Below are positions 3,043-11,193 of a stretch of DNA of 44,279 bases, one piece after another. This DNA comes from Candidatus Poribacteria bacterium (GTDB lineage Bacteria > Poribacteria > WGA-4E > WGA-3G), in contig VYCT01000331.1 of the NCBI GenBank assembly GCA_009843785.1, positions 1 to 44,279 of the forward strand, in the 5' to 3' direction. The notes under the pieces are model-generated. The model was not told where the DNA came from and made no database searches. It worked only from the letters and a program-made list of their open reading frames with translations. Made by a program: the position numbers and the translations under genes. Each line of letters begins with the position of its first letter. Position 1 is the stretch's first letter.

Positions 3043-3960
3043 ATGCAAAAATATGGTTGGACAAGTTACACGATTATAGGCATTTTGGTGGTTGTGGCAT
3101 GCGGCTGCGTTATCACCGGTTGTTCACCTCAAGATGGCGAAAGCAGTGCCGGTGAAGCAGCAGCACAAGTTATCAAGAATAAAGGCTCAGATACGATGGT
3201 GAATTTGGCACAGGCGTGGGCAGAGATATACACGGGGGTCACCATTACTGCGTCCGTAGAGGTATCGGGCGGTGGTTCTGGTACAGGGGTCGCCGCACTT
3301 ATTAATGGCACCGTAGATATCGCAAACTGTAGTCGTCAAATCAAACCCAAAGAGTTAGAACAGGCGACGCAAAATACGGGTAAAGCTCCACAAGAATTTA
3401 TTGTCGGATACGATGCGCTCGCGGTCTATGTCTACCACGATACACCTCTCGATAAAATTACGATTCCCCAACTCGCGGAAATATATGGTGAAGATGGTAC
3501 TATAACCAAATGGAGCGATCTCGGCGTTGCGCATGAGGATTGCCCGAGCGACAAAATTATCCGTATCAGTCGGCAATCTAATTCCGGCACTTACTTCTAT
3601 TTTCGAGAAGCACTACTTGGTAAAACGCGTGACTTTGAACTCGGTTCTTTGGATTTGCACGGCTCTAAGGACGTCGTAGAGGTTATTGGGCGAACGCCGT
3701 GTGCTATCGGCTACAGTGGTATGGGATACGCAACTTCGCATGTGAAAATGTTGGAAGTCGCTACAGCAGATGACGCACCTTATTATGCCCCAAATCTCAA
3801 AAATGTCCTCGCCAAAACCTACCCCATCGCTCGTCCATTGTACATGTATTCCCTTGGTGAACCTACCGGAGAAGTGAAAGCATACCTTGATTGGATTTTG
3901 TCAGCAGAAGGTCAAAAGATTGTGGAGAAACTCGGTTTCGTACCGTTAGAAAGCGACTAA
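3043..3960 (+). CDS. pstS: phosphate ABC transporter substrate-binding lipoprotein PstS
   Basis: This 305-residue protein starts with a hydrophobic signal segment ending in a lipobox (VITGC, Cys27), so it should be lipid-anchored and face the periplasm. Typical PstS phosphate-contact loops are visible: KGSDTM near residue 48, GGGSGTG near 77 and RQSNSGTY near 180, in a PBP-like type 2 fold. The length fits PstS. GGGAG lies before the ATG. It is the first gene of the operon and lies 18 bases before the permease gene, behind a possible Pho box. It would capture phosphate for PstC/PstA. Confidence 0.93.
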   Translation: MQKYGWTSYTIIGILVVVACGCVITGCSPQDGESSAGEAAAQVIKNKGSDTMVNLAQAWAEIYTGVTITASVEVSGGGSGTGVAALINGTVDIANCSRQIKPKELEQATQNTGKAPQEFIVGYDALAVYVYHDTPLDKITIPQLAEIYGEDGTITKWSDLGVAHEDCPSDKIIRISRQSNSGTYFYFREALLGKTRDFELGSLDLHGSKDVVEVIGRTPCAIGYSGMGYATSHVKMLEVATADDAPYYAPNLKNVLAKTYPIARPLYMYSLGEPTGEVKAYLDWILSAEGQKIVEKLGFVPLESD

Positions 3961-3978
3961 AGGAACACACTGGCTCAA

Positions 3979-5196
3979 ATGAATTTTATACAAATCTGTT
4001 TCTCCTTTAAAGGACGGATCAATAGAACAACATGGTGGATGATGCAGTTGCTAACACTCCCCATTTTTATTATTGCTTCCGTTATTACCTATAATGCTTA
4101 CACAGTATTATCAATGCCTATCCTCATAACATCGGTATATCTTATTCCCATAGTATTGATATTAGTGCTAATTTGGGTGAGTTTGGCAGTAACCACAAAA
4201 CGTTTGCACGACAGAGATAAATCAGGATGGTGGTTATTGATTAATTTTATCCCGATTATTGCGATGTTTGAATTGGGCTTTATTAAAGGGACAAGGGGGG
4301 ACAATCGCTTCGGAGCTGACTCAGAAACATCCTCTGAAACCGTAATTGAAACATTGATCCGCCTTTGCGGTTTTAGTTGTATTATCTTTGTCTTCGGTAT
4401 CTTCTTCTTCGTGTTTCGAGAGGGAGCAGGTTTTCTTTTCAACGGATTGGACTTGGGACAGTTCCTGACAAGCCCTGAGTGGTACCCAACTTCGCTGAGT
4501 AACAAAAGATACGGCACTTTCGCCTTGATTTTGGGCACTTTTAGCGTAACTACATTAGCGATGTGTATTGCTGTGCCTTTTGGACTCGGGGCAGCGATCT
4601 TTGTATCGGAATTCTGCAGCCCAAAACTCAGAGAAACATTTAAAATTATCATCGAATTGCTCGCCGCGATCCCTTCTGTTGTGTGGGGGTTCATCGGATT
4701 GACCCTGATGAATCAATTGATTATCGCGGTATTCAATGCCCCGATCGGTCTAACGATGTTGAACGGCAGCATCATGTTAGCGTTGATGAGTGTGCCGATT
4801 ATCGTTTCTATAGCAGAGGACGCGCTCAAAGCCGTTCCCGACTCCTATCGCGAAGCGGCGGAAGCACTCGGAGCAACCCGATGGCAGGTCATCTACCGCG
4901 TACTGCTACCCGCGGCAAAAAATGGACTCTTGGCAGCTGTGCTGCTCGGTGCCGCACGCTCCATTGGTGAGACGATGGCAGTCCTCATGGCGACAGGACA
5001 CTCCGTTAACATTCCATCGGGACCCCTCTCATGGATTCGCACACTCACGGCAACGATCGCTGCGGAACTCGGTGAAGTGGCAAGAGGCGACGAACACTAT
5101 CAGGTACTTTTTATCATCGGCGTATTGCTCTTTACCATTACGTTTGTCGTCAACCTCATCGCTGATTTAGTCATCAAAGGCATCCGCCAGGAGTAA
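3979..5196 (+). CDS. pstC: DUF805 domain fused to phosphate permease PstC
   Basis: Residues 1 to about 114 form a complete DUF805 membrane domain: FKGRINRTTWW near the N-terminus, hydrophobic segments, TTKRLHDRDKSGWWLL near 72-87, and the closing GTRGDNRFGAD. Residues from about 119 to 405 are PstC: SETVIETLIRLCGF, several membrane segments, the EAA loop (REAAEALGATRWQ) that docks on PstB, and RSIGET with the Arg and Glu needed for phosphate transport. There is no stop or credible internal start between the halves, so one polypeptide is expected. Ordinary PstC lacks this extension. The function of DUF805 is unknown. Ribosome binding is weak. Confidence 0.9.
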   Translation: MNFIQICFSFKGRINRTTWWMMQLLTLPIFIIASVITYNAYTVLSMPILITSVYLIPIVLILVLIWVSLAVTTKRLHDRDKSGWWLLINFIPIIAMFELGFIKGTRGDNRFGADSETSSETVIETLIRLCGFSCIIFVFGIFFFVFREGAGFLFNGLDLGQFLTSPEWYPTSLSNKRYGTFALILGTFSVTTLAMCIAVPFGLGAAIFVSEFCSPKLRETFKIIIELLAAIPSVVWGFIGLTLMNQLIIAVFNAPIGLTMLNGSIMLALMSVPIIVSIAEDALKAVPDSYREAAEALGATRWQVIYRVLLPAAKNGLLAAVLLGAARSIGETMAVLMATGHSVNIPSGPLSWIRTLTATIAAELGEVARGDEHYQVLFIIGVLLFTITFVVNLIADLVIKGIRQE

Positions 5197-5226
5197 TACT
5201 ATTATTTTCGCCAGCAATTTTTGGGT

Positions 5227-6198
5227 ATGGCTCGCAAGCCAAAACTCGCTGTTATAAAGCCTCAAGGATCTTATGGAAATATGAACACGGATATACAGGC
5301 ATCGCCAGAAACAATGTTTACAGAAACAGAAATCGGTAAACACAAGCGGCGGATCGAAAATGTGATGCGGATTTTCTTCCTCGTGATGACGAGTCTGATG
5401 ATTATTCCGCTGCTGCTCATTGTTGGTTACCTCCTCTACAAAGCACTCCCCGTTCTTTCGCTTGAGTTCCTGTTTACGAACCCGAAGGATAACATGCGCG
5501 CTGGAGGGCTCTGGGCACCTTTCCTCGGAACAATCTATTTAGTCGTCGTCTCTCTATTGGTAGCAGCACCTATTGGCGTGTTCGCAGCCGTCTATCTCAA
5601 CGAGTATGCCCGTGAAAGTTGGTTTACGCGTATCACAAACTTGGCTGTTGTGAACCTCGCGGGGGTGCCAAGCATTGTCCACGCTTTGTTCGGTGTCGGT
5701 GCCTTTGTGCTATTCGCGGGGCTCGGCGAATCCATCTTAGCAGCGTCGCTCACGTTGGCGATCATGACGCTCCCTGTTATTATTGCGAGTACCACGGAGG
5801 CTTTGAAGGCGGTACCGATGGCCTTCCGGGAAGCATGTTGGAATCTCGGCGCTACACGATGGCAAACAATACGGCGCATTGTCATCCCGAACTCAATCAG
5901 CGGTATTTTGACAGGTGTGATTCTACAGGTGTCGCGCGCAGCAGGTGAAACAGCTCCAATTATGTTTACGGGTGCTGTCTTTTATAAAGCTATTGTAGAA
6001 GGAAACCTTTTCGCCTATAATATAACAGAACAGTGTATGGCACTCTCGCTCCATCTCTTCACGATTTCAACACAGGTTCCGGATGTTACGGAAGGCATCC
6101 CTTATGGAACTGCGGTGGTACTCGTCGGTAGTGTGTTACTCGTCAACGCCGTATCGATTGTGCTAAGGATTTATGTCCGAACTCGGAAGAAGTGGTAG
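5227..6198 (+). CDS. pstA: phosphate ABC transporter permease PstA
   Basis: An integral membrane subunit with about six transmembrane segments and the EAA motif REACWNLGATRWQ near residue 205, followed by SRAAGET, the PstA equivalent of the conserved Arg/Glu pair. It pairs with PstC to form the phosphate channel. The frame is open from a TTG at 5221. I use ATG 5227, but ATG 5281 (MNTDIQ, with AAGGA 12 bases upstream) is a good alternative because the first 20 residues look unlike the family. It follows pstC by about 30 bases. Confidence 0.92.
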   Translation: MARKPKLAVIKPQGSYGNMNTDIQASPETMFTETEIGKHKRRIENVMRIFFLVMTSLMIIPLLLIVGYLLYKALPVLSLEFLFTNPKDNMRAGGLWAPFLGTIYLVVVSLLVAAPIGVFAAVYLNEYARESWFTRITNLAVVNLAGVPSIVHALFGVGAFVLFAGLGESILAASLTLAIMTLPVIIASTTEALKAVPMAFREACWNLGATRWQTIRRIVIPNSISGILTGVILQVSRAAGETAPIMFTGAVFYKAIVEGNLFAYNITEQCMALSLHLFTISTQVPDVTEGIPYGTAVVLVGSVLLVNAVSIVLRIYVRTRKKW

Positions 6199-6301: not shown

Positions 6302-7030
6302 ATGGAGAAAAAAGAAAGATTACGCGCCATTGTTGAAGGGAGTGTATTTACCGGAATCATCCAATTCCTGATTCTTGCTTCTGCTGTTGTCTTTGTGATT
6401 GAATCCGATAGACAGCAATTGGAGGTGGATCCTTATGCAACCCATTTCATTGTCTTAGACGTGGTTTTTCTGGTACTGTTTTCGATAGAATATGCGCTGC
6501 GCGTCTATATTGAACCAAAGAAACGGGATTTCGTTTTTAGTTTCTATGGTCTCATTGACCTGGTCGCCATTTTACCATCTCTGTTCCTCGTGCCGGGGTT
6601 TCGCGTGCTACGGATACTTCGGTTTTTGCGAATTTTCAGAATATTTAAGGCGACGCGGTTTATTTTAGCCGTGGATCGGCTCGGAGCGGCACTCCGTGAA
6701 ATTCAACAGGAGCTTTTAGCACTGGTAATCTTATCGTTGATGTTTGTATACCTCGCTGCCTGCGGCATCCACTTTTTTGAAAGAGAGGTGCAACCTGAGG
6801 CATTCGGCTCTATTCTTGATTCAATGTGGTGGTCAGTCGTGACGTTAACCACAATCGGTTATGGAGATGTCTATCCGACAACCTCTGGCGGGAGGCTTTT
6901 CACTGCTCTCGTCGCGCTTGTCGGGGTAGGCTTAATAGCAATTCCGTCCGGCTTGTTAGCTTCTGCCTTAACAGAAGCGCGAGTGGAACGCGAGCAGATA
7001 GAAGCAGATGAGGCGGAAAATGAAAAATAA
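6302..7030 (+). CDS. voltage-gated-type potassium channel
   Basis: This 242-residue protein has the six-segment Kv layout. S1-S3 cover about residues 14-95. The S4 voltage sensor at 101-119 has Arg or Lys at nearly every third position (RVLRILRFLRIFRIFK). S5 follows, then the pore helix and selectivity filter TIGYGD at 184-189, then S6. A charged C-terminal tail (about 226-242) could form a coiled coil. It should conduct K+ across the inner membrane. AAGGAAGG precedes the ATG. It sits between pstA and the pstB-like genes, all in one direction, with a 103-base gap upstream, so it may be co-expressed with phosphate uptake. Confidence 0.92.
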   Translation: MEKKERLRAIVEGSVFTGIIQFLILASAVVFVIESDRQQLEVDPYATHFIVLDVVFLVLFSIEYALRVYIEPKKRDFVFSFYGLIDLVAILPSLFLVPGFRVLRILRFLRIFRIFKATRFILAVDRLGAALREIQQELLALVILSLMFVYLAACGIHFFEREVQPEAFGSILDSMWWSVVTLTTIGYGDVYPTTSGGRLFTALVALVGVGLIAIPSGLLASALTEARVEREQIEADEAENEK

Positions 7031-7099
7031 AATAGAAATTACAAATTCGACAGATAGAAGGTTATGCAAACGAGGCAAACGTGGAAAATAAAATAGAGA
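7020..7099 (+). repeat. near-duplicate of the pstB1 start region
   Basis: The bases from 7020 (ATGAAAAATAAAATAGAAATT) nearly match those at the real pstB1 start at 7081 (GTGGAAAATAAAATAGAGATT). The first copy overlaps the end of the channel gene and opens only a 23-codon frame. It may be a small tandem duplication that left a decoy start, or chance in AT-rich sequence. Confidence 0.35.
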
Positions 7100-7836
7100 T
7101 TTCCGACCTACAGGTCCATTACGGAGATAAATCGGCACTGAATGGTGTCTCCTTTGATGTTCATCCAAATGAGATTCTCGGTATCATCGGTCCCGCGCAG
7201 TCGGGTAAAACGACGCTTTTAAAAGTTATCAATAGAACCTTGGAATTCACACCGGAGGCAACAGTGCAAGGTTCTGTCAAATTGGATGGCGTGGACATTG
7301 ACACAATCGGCGATGTGTATGAATTGCGCCGACGCATCGGTATGGTGCTACCTTTACCGGTCGGTTTACCGCTTTCCATATACGATAACGTCGCTTTCGC
7401 GCCGCGGACGGCAGGACTTCGCACGAAATCTGAATTGGATGAAATCGTTGAACGCTGTCTACAGCAAGCGGCACTCTGGGACGAAGTGAAAGACCGTTTG
7501 GATAGCCTCGGCACCAAATTGTCGGGTGGACAACAACAACGTCTGACAATCGCGCGTGCCCTTTCACATCAACCGGAGGTTCTTTGTCTTGACGAATTTT
7601 CTATCGCTATTGATCCTGTCACAACGATGCGTATTGAAGATGTCCTGAAAACTTTACAGACAGAAATGACGATTTTGCTGGTCACGAATTTGGTGCAACA
7701 GGCAAAACGGTTAGCGAATCGTACTGCCTTTTTTCTCAATGGCGATCTCGTTGAGATTGACACAACAGATGTAATTTTTTCCGAGAATCCGGCAAATCAA
7801 GCCACTTATGATTATGTCAACGGCACCTTTGGCTAA
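7081..7836 (+). CDS. PstB-like ABC ATPase 1 (degenerate Q- and H-loops)
   Basis: This 251-residue protein is PstB-like throughout. Walker A is GPAQSGKT (37-44), the ABC signature LSGGQQQR (147-154) is intact, and Walker B ends in LDE (170-172). However, the Q-loop Gln of the PstB motif GMVFQ is replaced by Pro91 (GMVLP), and the switch histidine of VTHN is Asn203 (VTNL). Its own ATP site is thus probably inactive or slow, while its signature can complete a partner's site. The start is GTG with a weak ribosome binding site. It lies directly after the K+ channel and ahead of a second PstB-like gene, its likely heterodimer partner. Confidence 0.88.
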   Translation: MENKIEISDLQVHYGDKSALNGVSFDVHPNEILGIIGPAQSGKTTLLKVINRTLEFTPEATVQGSVKLDGVDIDTIGDVYELRRRIGMVLPLPVGLPLSIYDNVAFAPRTAGLRTKSELDEIVERCLQQAALWDEVKDRLDSLGTKLSGGQQQRLTIARALSHQPEVLCLDEFSIAIDPVTTMRIEDVLKTLQTEMTILLVTNLVQQAKRLANRTAFFLNGDLVEIDTTDVIFSENPANQATYDYVNGTFG

Positions 7837-7943: not shown

Positions 7944-8729
7944 ATGAGCTTGCAAACTATTTCTATGAATCATAGCATTGAAACGGAAAACCTCAGTCTT
8001 TGGTATGGCGATTTTCAGGCACTCATTGATGTCAATGTGAAAATACCAGACGGTCAGATAACGTCCCTTATTGGGCCTTCTGGATGTGGAAAAACAACGC
8101 TATTGCGCTGTTTTAATCGTGTCAATGAACGCTACGGCAACGTTACTACAGAGGGGAAGATTGAGATATTAGGGAAAAATATCTATGATCCAGATGTCTC
8201 TTTGCCGGAACTCCGAAAAGCGGTTGGGATGGTGTTTCAGAGACCGAATCCGTTGCCGATTTCCGTTTACGAGAATATCTTGTTTGGATTACGTATCCAT
8301 TCGCCAATGCGGAGTCTCACGCGGTCAGAATCCGATCAGATTGTTGAAGAAGCACTCACATCTGTCTTTCTTTGGGAGGATCTGAAGGACAAATTGAAGA
8401 CACGGGCGACATCGCTCCAGCTTGAACAGCAGCAAAAACTCTGTATTGCCCGTCTGTTGCCTCTTAAACCCAAAATTATTTTGATGGATGAACCCTGCTC
8501 CGCCTTAGATGCAAAAGGCACACTTGCTGTTGAAGAACTCATGGAAGTCCTTGCGGGGACATATACATTTTTGATCGTGACGCATAACATGGCACAAGCA
8601 CGGCGCGTCAGCGAGGAGTGTATTTTCATGTTCCTCGGAGAACTTATCGAACACAGAGAGACGCAAGCCCTGTTTGAGGACCCAAAGCAGGAAAAAACCG
8701 CTGATTATGTGCAGATGCGGTACGGTTAG
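7944..8729 (+). CDS. PstB-like ABC ATPase 2 (intact catalytic motifs, degenerate signature)
   Basis: This 261-residue protein has Walker A GPSGCGKT (44-51), the Q-loop GMVFQRPNP (Gln99), Walker B MDEPCSALD (181-189) and the switch His214 (VTHNM), all exactly as in PstB. The ABC signature is ruined: LSGGQQQR reads LQLEQQQK (158-165). It is the mirror image of ATPase 1. Paired with ATPase 1 it would form one normal ATP site (its own Walker motifs facing the LSGGQ of ATPase 1) and one degenerate site. It should energise the Pst permeases from the cytoplasmic side. Confidence 0.9.
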   Translation: MSLQTISMNHSIETENLSLWYGDFQALIDVNVKIPDGQITSLIGPSGCGKTTLLRCFNRVNERYGNVTTEGKIEILGKNIYDPDVSLPELRKAVGMVFQRPNPLPISVYENILFGLRIHSPMRSLTRSESDQIVEEALTSVFLWEDLKDKLKTRATSLQLEQQQKLCIARLLPLKPKIILMDEPCSALDAKGTLAVEELMEVLAGTYTFLIVTHNMAQARRVSEECIFMFLGELIEHRETQALFEDPKQEKTADYVQMRYG

Positions 8730-8848: not shown

Positions 8849-9676
8849 ATGAATTCTATGACGCCTCGCGCAGAGCGAAAACAGAAAATCGTTTTGCAGA
8901 GCATCGCCTTTATTATACTGGGAGTTGCGTTTGTTGGTCTATGGCATGAGTTGAAAGATGCGCGTGCGACCGGTGGGCAACCAGCATCAGAAGCAATTCT
9001 ACTCAGCGCGTTGTCTTCTCTGTTTAACAATCTCTACGTTGTTCTTTCGATGAGTTTTTTGGCGATTCTGTTTGGCATAGCGTTTGCCTTCTACTTAGAA
9101 GAATGGCTACCAGCAACCAATTGGATTCGGCGTTTGATTGAAAGTTTAGTCGCTATTTTGACGGGTATACCTTCAATTGCTTACGGAATCTTGGCAATCC
9201 TCATTTTTTTTAGTTACGCTGATACTCTCAAAGAAGCGATTGAGGCTTTTCCCCTTTCTGAGAATATAGAGGCAATACCCTCCCAGATTGAGACTACAGT
9301 GTTTTATGCTGAAGCATTAACCTTCATATTAATGGTAATGCCGTTAACAATCAAAACGACCCAAGAAGCACTTCGCTCGGTAGCGACACCGATCCGTGAA
9401 GCGGCTTATGTGCTGGGTGCAAGCCAGTGGCAAGTACTAACAAGGCAGGTTGTTCCGATTGCCTTCACTCGGATACTCGCTGGCGGATGCCGCTCAATGT
9501 CCCGCGCATTTGCTATGGCAGCGTTACTTGTTGGTATCTATACATGGCACTACACAACCGAACCCGGAGGAATGTCCGGTAGCTTTATACTATTTTTAGG
9601 TGTGGCACTGTTCTTGAGCATTTTCTCAAGTACCCTTATATGGGTGTACGGTTCTGACTCGGCACAACACAGTTAA
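8849..9676 (+). CDS. divergent PstA/PstC-like permease
   Basis: A 275-residue membrane protein of the binding-protein-dependent transporter permease class, with about six transmembrane segments and a good EAA loop (REAAYVLGASQWQ, near 183-195). After the loop, the phosphate-permease motif RAxGET is replaced by SRAFAMAALL (about 218-227). The Arg remains, but the Glu that matters in PstC/PstA is missing. The substrate may not be phosphate, or the subunit may be structural. It lies between the second and third ATPase genes. It has no partner permease of its own nearby, so it may act as a homodimer or swap with PstA. Confidence 0.8.
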   Translation: MNSMTPRAERKQKIVLQSIAFIILGVAFVGLWHELKDARATGGQPASEAILLSALSSLFNNLYVVLSMSFLAILFGIAFAFYLEEWLPATNWIRRLIESLVAILTGIPSIAYGILAILIFFSYADTLKEAIEAFPLSENIEAIPSQIETTVFYAEALTFILMVMPLTIKTTQEALRSVATPIREAAYVLGASQWQVLTRQVVPIAFTRILAGGCRSMSRAFAMAALLVGIYTWHYTTEPGGMSGSFILFLGVALFLSIFSSTLIWVYGSDSAQHS

Positions 9677-9744: not shown

Positions 9745-10512
9745 ATGCTGAGTGAAAAAGAGCAATCTATTTTGAGTATCCGTAATCTAAATATCTGGTA
9801 CGGCGACGCGCAGATTCTGAGTTCTCTTTCTTTCGAGGTCCAACAGAAACAGGTAACTGCGTTCATCGGACCTGCGAACTGTGGTAAAAGCACGCTTGTC
9901 CGATGTCTCAATCGATTAAATGACTTTGTACCGAATTTCAGGTCTACTGGCGAAATACTTTTTAAAGGCGTACACTTGGGCACTTCAACAGATACGACCG
10001 CGCTTCGGAAACAGATCGGAATGGTGTTCCGAAGACCGGTACTCTTTCGGTGCTCCATCTATGAAAATGTAGCGTACGGTGCCCGGATTTCCGGCGTGAA
10101 CCAAGCCGCACATCTCGATACGATTGTTGAGAAAAACCTCCGAAAAACGGGACTTTGGGGTGCGGTTGAAAATATTTTGGATGAAACACCAGAACAACTC
10201 TCAAGAGGACAGCAGCAACTGCTCTGTATTGCACGTGCATTGGCGGTTGACCCCGAAGTTTTGATATTTGATGAACCGTGTGGAGAACTGGATCCTATAG
10301 AAACCGTCAAAATTGAAACACTCGTGCGCGATCTGACAAACGAATGCACGCTCATCTTTGCGACCAACAAAAGAAGACAAGCCGCCCGTGTCTCTGATGT
10401 GGCTGGGTTTCTCTACGGGGGTGAGTTGATCGAATTTGGAGCAACGGAAAAAATTTTTACGAATCCACAGGACAATAGAACCGAACAATATGTAACAGGA
10501 AGACTCGGTTAA
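9745..10512 (+). CDS. PstB-like ABC ATPase 3 (degenerate Q-loop, signature and H-loop)
   Basis: This 255-residue PstB relative has Walker A GPANCGKS (42-49) and Walker B FDEP (175-178). The Q-loop Gln is Arg96 (GMVFR), the signature reads LSRGQ (152-156), and the switch His is Asn208 (ATNK). The overall PstB frame, including the C-terminal YVTGRLG, is retained. It probably cannot work as a homodimer and would need the intact catalytic side of ATPase 2. It lies 68 bases after the divergent permease and 30 before phoU. Confidence 0.87.
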   Translation: MLSEKEQSILSIRNLNIWYGDAQILSSLSFEVQQKQVTAFIGPANCGKSTLVRCLNRLNDFVPNFRSTGEILFKGVHLGTSTDTTALRKQIGMVFRRPVLFRCSIYENVAYGARISGVNQAAHLDTIVEKNLRKTGLWGAVENILDETPEQLSRGQQQLLCIARALAVDPEVLIFDEPCGELDPIETVKIETLVRDLTNECTLIFATNKRRQAARVSDVAGFLYGGELIEFGATEKIFTNPQDNRTEQYVTGRLG

Positions 10513-10542: not shown

Positions 10543-11193
10543 ATGTTACAAGCAGAAATCAGAACCCTTCAGCACAAACTTTTGGAAATGGCTGGGCTTG
10601 CTGAACAGATGTTCCGCCAGGCTGTTGAATCCGTCTTAGAACGCGATGAAGCGTTAGCTCGGGTTGTCATTGATACAGACGACACGATTGATCAGTTTGA
10701 AAACGAAATCGAATCCTTGTGTATCCAGTTAATCGCGCTTCACCAACCGGTAGCGTTTGAACTCCGTTTCCTGACGATGGTGATGAAGATCAGCCACAAC
10801 ATTGAAAGGCTTGCTGACAAAAGCGTCGCTATCGCCAGACGGAGCATTGAACTCTTAGAATACCCACCCGTCAAACCGTTCGTTGATTTACCGCACGCGG
10901 CACAAGTGATTCAAACAATGGTGAAGGATGTGATTGATGCGTTTGTGAATCGGAACGCTGAACTTGCCTTAGAAATTCGAGGGCGGGATCATGAAGTAGA
11001 CGAAATCTATGACAGAATGCTCCATGAACTTCAAACGATTTTAAGTGAGCACCCTAAACTTATCCAACCCGGTATCAGCCTTTTACTCCTTTTCCGACAC
11101 CTGGAGCGCGTCGGTGATCTCGCTGCAAATATCGGTGAAGAGGTCTATTACCTCGTCAAAGGCGATGTCATCCGCCATTCCGATACGCACTAA
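10543..11193 (+). CDS. phoU: phosphate transport regulator PhoU
   Basis: This 216-residue all-helical protein has the two PhoU repeats: one in about residues 10-100 with ERLADKS, one in about 115-205 with HLERVGDLAANIGEE. These E/D-rich motifs bind metal clusters in the family. PhoU restrains phosphate uptake and links Pst to the PhoR/PhoB signalling pair. It is the last gene of the operon, as usual. AAGGTG lies before the ATG. Downstream genes converge on it from the other strand. Confidence 0.93.
   Translation: MLQAEIRTLQHKLLEMAGLAEQMFRQAVESVLERDEALARVVIDTDDTIDQFENEIESLCIQLIALHQPVAFELRFLTMVMKISHNIERLADKSVAIARRSIELLEYPPVKPFVDLPHAAQVIQTMVKDVIDAFVNRNAELALEIRGRDHEVDEIYDRMLHELQTILSEHPKLIQPGISLLLLFRHLERVGDLAANIGEEVYYLVKGDVIRHSDTH

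Follow-up and report, generated by a model that had tools for sequence, protein, structure and literature searches.

Background

DUF805 is, to our knowledge, a common small bacterial membrane domain about whose role almost nothing is known. It is common in Proteobacteria and Firmicutes, and the Escherichia coli proteins YhaH and YhaI are members of the family. A stretch of 44,279 bp from the genome of a Candidatus Poribacteria bacterium (contig VYCT01000331.1; hereafter 'the window', with the genome denoted G000) was predicted to carry an entire DUF805 domain fused in frame with PstC, an otherwise normal permease subunit of the Pst phosphate importer. This raises the questions of whether such a fusion is genuine, how it arose and what it might reveal about the domain. 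Natural alleles of PstC with and without the domain, in near-identical operons, provide a clean comparison of its effect on a well-studied importer, and the locus also offers a case of recombination between species by which a nutrient-uptake operon of uncultured, sponge-associated symbionts has gained an entire protein domain.

Results and Discussion

A complete DUF805 domain precedes a complete PstC

The gene at positions 3,979-5,196 of the forward strand is a single ORF with an ATG start, encoding 405 aa without an internal stop. The DUF805 domain occupies residues 1-113 (3,979-4,317), with the Pfam profile PF05656 matching residues 7-113 (3,997-4,317) over the whole of its length (1-111 of 111; E 9e-25; 87.7 bits relative to a cut-off of 25.7) and the 15 most conserved columns of the family all being retained. 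It is followed by the linker DSETSSET (residues 114-121; 4,318-4,341), which lies within the peptide RFGADSETSSETVIE, and by the PstC core (residues 119-405; 4,333-5,193), a complete permease with the EAA loop EAAEALGATRWQ. This part of the protein matches the equivalog NCBIfam model TIGR02138 at residues 121-400 (270.3 bits; curated cut-off 196.45) and BPD_transp_1 (PF00528) at residues 199-403 (E 1.3e-23). The protein consists, as predicted, of a whole DUF805 and a complete PstC in the same frame.

The original prediction that neither a stop nor an internal start separates the two domains is likewise borne out, as the frame is open over all 405 codons and no in-frame ATG is present close to where the PstC part begins, the earliest candidates being a TTG at residue 126, a GTG at residue 145 and an ATG at residue 195. 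No ribosome-binding motif was seen before the TTG. Production of a separate PstC from an internal start was considered and rejected, since the frame has no ATG ahead of residue 195 and no other start codon is conserved.

Relative to E. coli PstC, as represented in the PstSCAB structures 9k3s, 9k3x and 9k3y, the fused protein shares the complete permease domain, the EAA loop, the position of the gene between pstS and pstA and the fold, but has about 110 extra N-terminal residues corresponding to DUF805. The domain itself shares the full profile and the invariant GR..R..W, KR.HD and G....N..G motifs with known DUF805 proteins such as E. coli YhaH and YhaI, but differs from them in being fused to a transporter subunit.

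An AlphaFold model built from 77 diverse sequences had a mean pLDDT of 80.5, compared with only 48.5 for an earlier model from 28 close sequences. The permease portion of this model has a fold match to E. coli PstC in the cryo-EM structure of PstSCAB (9k3x_B; Foldseek E 2.5e-12, TMt 0.75). Within DUF805, helices were modelled at residues 16-43, 50-76 and 83-102, with the third helix and the linker of low confidence (pLDDT 46-62). By the positive-inside rule, basic stretches at residues 11-16, 74-81 and 103-110 suggest a cytoplasmic location for the N-terminus, the middle loop and the linker alike, in which case the third hydrophobic segment may be re-entrant or paired. The three-helix model does not by itself yield a cytoplasmic linker.

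The fusion is patchily distributed within one family

A search of 98 relatives found pstC in most genomes of the window's family, and 56 of these had a full-length PstC core. The fusion is present in 20 of the 56, with the remaining 36 lacking DUF805 on PstC: it occurs in six of 36 genomes from the window's own genus, in 14 of the 17 from a second genus (g3) and in none of the three from two further genera. The nearest named relatives are all metagenome-assembled genomes (MAGs) of Candidatus Poribacteria. In every one of the 20, which come from independent assemblies and include two single-contig chromosomes (G005 and G045), the junction at about 4,310-4,340 is in frame, and the alignment reveals the same linker, D(S/A)ETSSE, throughout. 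The fusion is therefore genuine, and not an artefact of assembly. Short PstC proteins have only ..PFSET at this position, and free DUF805 proteins end in ..RFGPDPVKR; neither has the fusion linker.

A history that we consider probable would account for these observations. A DUF805 coding segment would have been inserted once between pstS and pstC of the Poribacteria pst operon, and read-through from the inserted segment into pstC would have created a genuine, functional PstC permease subunit with an N-terminal membrane domain. The resulting cassette, comprising the end of pstS, DUF805, the linker and the start of pstC, would then have passed from one species to another by crossing over within the conserved pstS and pstC sequence on either side, such that fused and short alleles could come to coexist among close relatives.

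The fused DUF805 domain is constrained

An open reading frame is no proof that the DUF805 domain functions, as PstC would be lost too if a stop arose there. More telling is the pattern of substitution: nine residues (G12, R13, R16, W20, R75, D78, G104, N109 and G112) never change across the 20 fused copies, whereas other positions do. The 15 columns most conserved among free DUF805 proteins have a mean conservation of 0.94 in the fused copies, compared with 0.72 elsewhere, and column conservation in the fused and free sets is correlated (Spearman 0.56). The retention of all these invariant residues indicates that the domain is under selection. It nevertheless evolves faster than the permease to which it is joined, with a dN/dS of 0.19-0.32 relative to 0.02-0.05 in PstC, which leaves some probability to its being a weakly constrained passenger.

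This bears on the main rival explanation, that DUF805 is a tolerated passenger, accidentally fused without harm to PstC and hitchhiking in ordinary recombination of the pst region. The absence of the domain from 36 of the 56 family members, with an identical operon, is consistent with such a proposal, as is its faster evolution, seen in its two length types: type B copies have a tandem duplication of the WW..IP segment (in G005 a 72-base repeat, with 92% identity over 36 bases), and type A copies a shortened third hydrophobic segment. Signs of exchange are present in other genes of the cluster too, such as the ion channel gene described below, for which dS between G000 and G006 is 0.14. A passenger free of selection, however, would have lost the defining residues, which are the same in 20 of 20 copies whilst the rest of the domain diverges at dS of up to about 1.2. 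We accordingly regard the passenger explanation as unlikely, if still to be taken seriously.

Exchange of the fused segment between species

Comparison of the window with G006, another species, gives a dS of 0.04 in DUF805, relative to 0.63 in pstS, 0.58 in the PstC core, 0.54 in pstA and 0.69 in rpoB. A scan identified a single low-divergence segment at 3,898-4,352, with eight differences in 455 bases compared with 13.3% divergence outside; none of 1,000 shuffles attained its score, a procedure that ignores differences in constraint between sites, although the lower constraint on DUF805 than on its neighbours works against such a result. The tract spans the 3' end of pstS, DUF805 and the linker and terminates just inside the PstC part, its ends falling as expected for homologous recombination through conserved pstS and pstC flanks. 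A weaker signal links the window to G014, with a dS of 0.22 in DUF805 and 0.58-0.77 in pstS, the PstC core and pstA (scan p about 0.06). The exchange tract is thus strong for G000 and G006 only and suggestive for G000 and G014. Judged from these sequence comparisons, at least one copy of the fused segment has moved recently between species by recombination.

A bolder proposal is that the DUF805 part of PstC is a cassette for specificity or regulation that can be exchanged, with the alleles (none, type A or type B) being swapped between sponge symbionts as selection on the membrane face of Pst varies, imposed for instance by a partner protein, the lipid environment or phage. We consider this improbable; were it correct, DUF805 would represent a general plug-in modulator of membrane complexes.

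A probable single origin from a short ancestral PstC

A phylogeny of DUF805 domains, both fused and free, places all the fused ones in one clade (support 96/93), adjacent to which are free-standing DUF805 genes of Poribacteria. A single fusion event is the simplest reading of this topology, and appears likely. The fused state nonetheless requires five changes on a tree of the PstC core and six on a DNA tree of rpoB, in which the window's genome groups with its unfused sister G011, G006 with the unfused G021, and G014 with the unfused G004, G028 and G032.

Such patchiness could alternatively reflect a fusion ancestral to the family that was lost many times, as its occurrence in two genera and its predominance in g3 might suggest. 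Yet the short PstC proteins of all four genera have N-termini that are both short and homologous (MNILRKKSAANLPFSET and variants), a similarity that separate deletions would not produce, and the PstC proteins of the outgroups, at order level and beyond Poribacteria, are short too. The widespread short form is consequently most likely the ancestral state, and the low-divergence tract would require recent exchange whatever the ancestor; repeated loss of an ancestral fusion is therefore decidedly improbable. Separate lineages might instead each have fused a closely related DUF805 gene to pstC, which would also be compatible with a patchy distribution and with the existence of two length types, but this is a still more remote prospect given the single clade of fused domains and a linker that all of them have and that free DUF805 and short PstC proteins lack. 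As for an assembly or binning artefact at 4,310-4,340, the fact that most of the genomes are metagenome-assembled counts for almost nothing against the recurrence of an identical junction in 20 genomes and against divergence of the flanks from relatives that matches that of rpoB, meaning the contig belongs to its genome, and the idea can be dismissed.

The fusion appears confined to Poribacteria

Among the best 80 relatives of the PstC in GTDB contigs, no DUF805-PstC fusion was found outside Poribacteria, and the non-Poribacteria proteins match only from about residue 98-120. Neither was one found on plasmids, where no place covers 80% of the query, nor among DUF805 matches in parts of four other phyla. 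No open-access literature linking DUF805 with PstC was found. Provisionally, then, the fusion is absent outside Poribacteria, and what is new here is the joined architecture, together with its inter-species exchange, of two families that are themselves known.

The original view that DUF805 is normally free-standing requires qualification: this is usually the case, but other multi-domain DUF805 proteins exist (L096, L097, L253, L256 and L272). No permease domain was detected, by Pfam or by reading, in these or in L251, all of which are long DUF805 frames from the other phyla sampled or from relatives within the order. Three of the long proteins (L272:2,025-4,019, L097:482-1,660 and L253:697-1,902) are other, unrelated DUF805 fusions with the domain at the C-terminus; the region ahead of it has no Pfam match in L097 and L253, the two to which Pfam was applied. 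A different elaboration of PstC is found in G082, from another family of the phylum, in which the protein (L095:2,503-3,756) is 418 aa long and includes a PstS-like segment (PF12849 at residues 53-148; E 1.1e-5) between the first helix and the permease domain.

A possible accessory role

The fusion had been proposed as a first functional clue to DUF805, but as such it is weak, since the unfused majority of the family includes close sisters with the same operon. As PstC is intact and the operon the same with or without it, the domain is accessory. It may hold the N-terminus and linker in the cytoplasm and pack against the permease as an additional membrane module, and could tune how the Pst importer is assembled, stabilised or regulated whilst being dispensable for transport; we judge the chances of such a modulating role to be about even.

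No pst or phoU homologue was found within about 1.5 kb of a free-standing DUF805 gene at any of 52 loci, which are mostly from Poribacteria and one other phylum. The closest relatives of the fused domains, the free DUF805 proteins of the Poribacteria G011, G015, G032 and G044, are about 51-55% identical to them over residues 1-115, but are encoded by separate genes with a TTG start, are about 116 aa long, end in ..FGPDPVKR and do not have pst nearby. The window's own genome contains no DUF805 other than the fused copy. In E. coli, no link to phosphate was found for yhaHIJ, with yhaH appearing in literature lists only; modulation by the envelope-stress regulator CpxR is listed for these genes (PMC2731931). 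The fusion shows that PstC of one lineage tolerates DUF805 and has kept it, whereas a general action of DUF805 proteins in phosphate uptake is not supported.

The surrounding pst cluster

The genes flanking the fusion, all on the forward strand, form an operon with the same order in fused and short-PstC genomes. The phosphate-binding protein PstS is encoded directly upstream (3,043-3,960; TIGR02136, 217.9 bits, cut-off 206.6) and the partner permease PstA downstream (5,221-6,198; TIGR00974, 254.7 bits, cut-off 193.45). These are succeeded by an Ion_trans channel gene (6,302-7,030; PF00520, E 3.2e-35), PstB-like ATPases 1 (7,081-7,836; 281.7 bits) and 2 (7,944-8,729; 315.1 bits), a third, divergent PstA/PstC-like permease subunit (8,849-9,676; TIGR00974, 92 bits; below the cut-offs for PstA and PstC), PstB-like ATPase 3 (9,745-10,512; 303.8 bits) and PhoU (10,543-11,193; TIGR02135, 194 bits, cut-off 130). 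All three PstB-like proteins, at 282-315 bits, fall below the TIGR00972 cut-off of 343.2, and the presence of three divergent ATPases and a third permease distinguishes this operon from E. coli PstSCAB.

The first two ATPases have lost complementary motifs. ATPase 1 retains an intact LSGGQ but lacks the Q-loop glutamine at most of 48 loci and the H-loop histidine (VTN), while ATPase 2, across 47 loci, has intact Walker A and B motifs, Q-loop and histidine but the signature LQLEQ. The predicted assembly is a heterodimer in which one ATP site is canonical and the other dead, in contrast to the PstB homodimer of E. coli. ATPase 3 has an altered Q-loop and histidine, and together with the third permease adjoins phoU on its upstream side, an arrangement conserved across the family. 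The Ion_trans gene, between pstA and ATPase 1, encodes a potassium-type channel with a TTIGYGDVYP filter, and it keeps this position at essentially every family locus that extends far enough.

Elsewhere in the window's genome, the rpoB of its genus (L211; G000:C104:2,400-5,300) contains approximately 370 extra in-frame residues inside PF00562. Other genera of the family and order, where the matches are continuous, lack the additional segment, which may be either a lineage insert or an intein.
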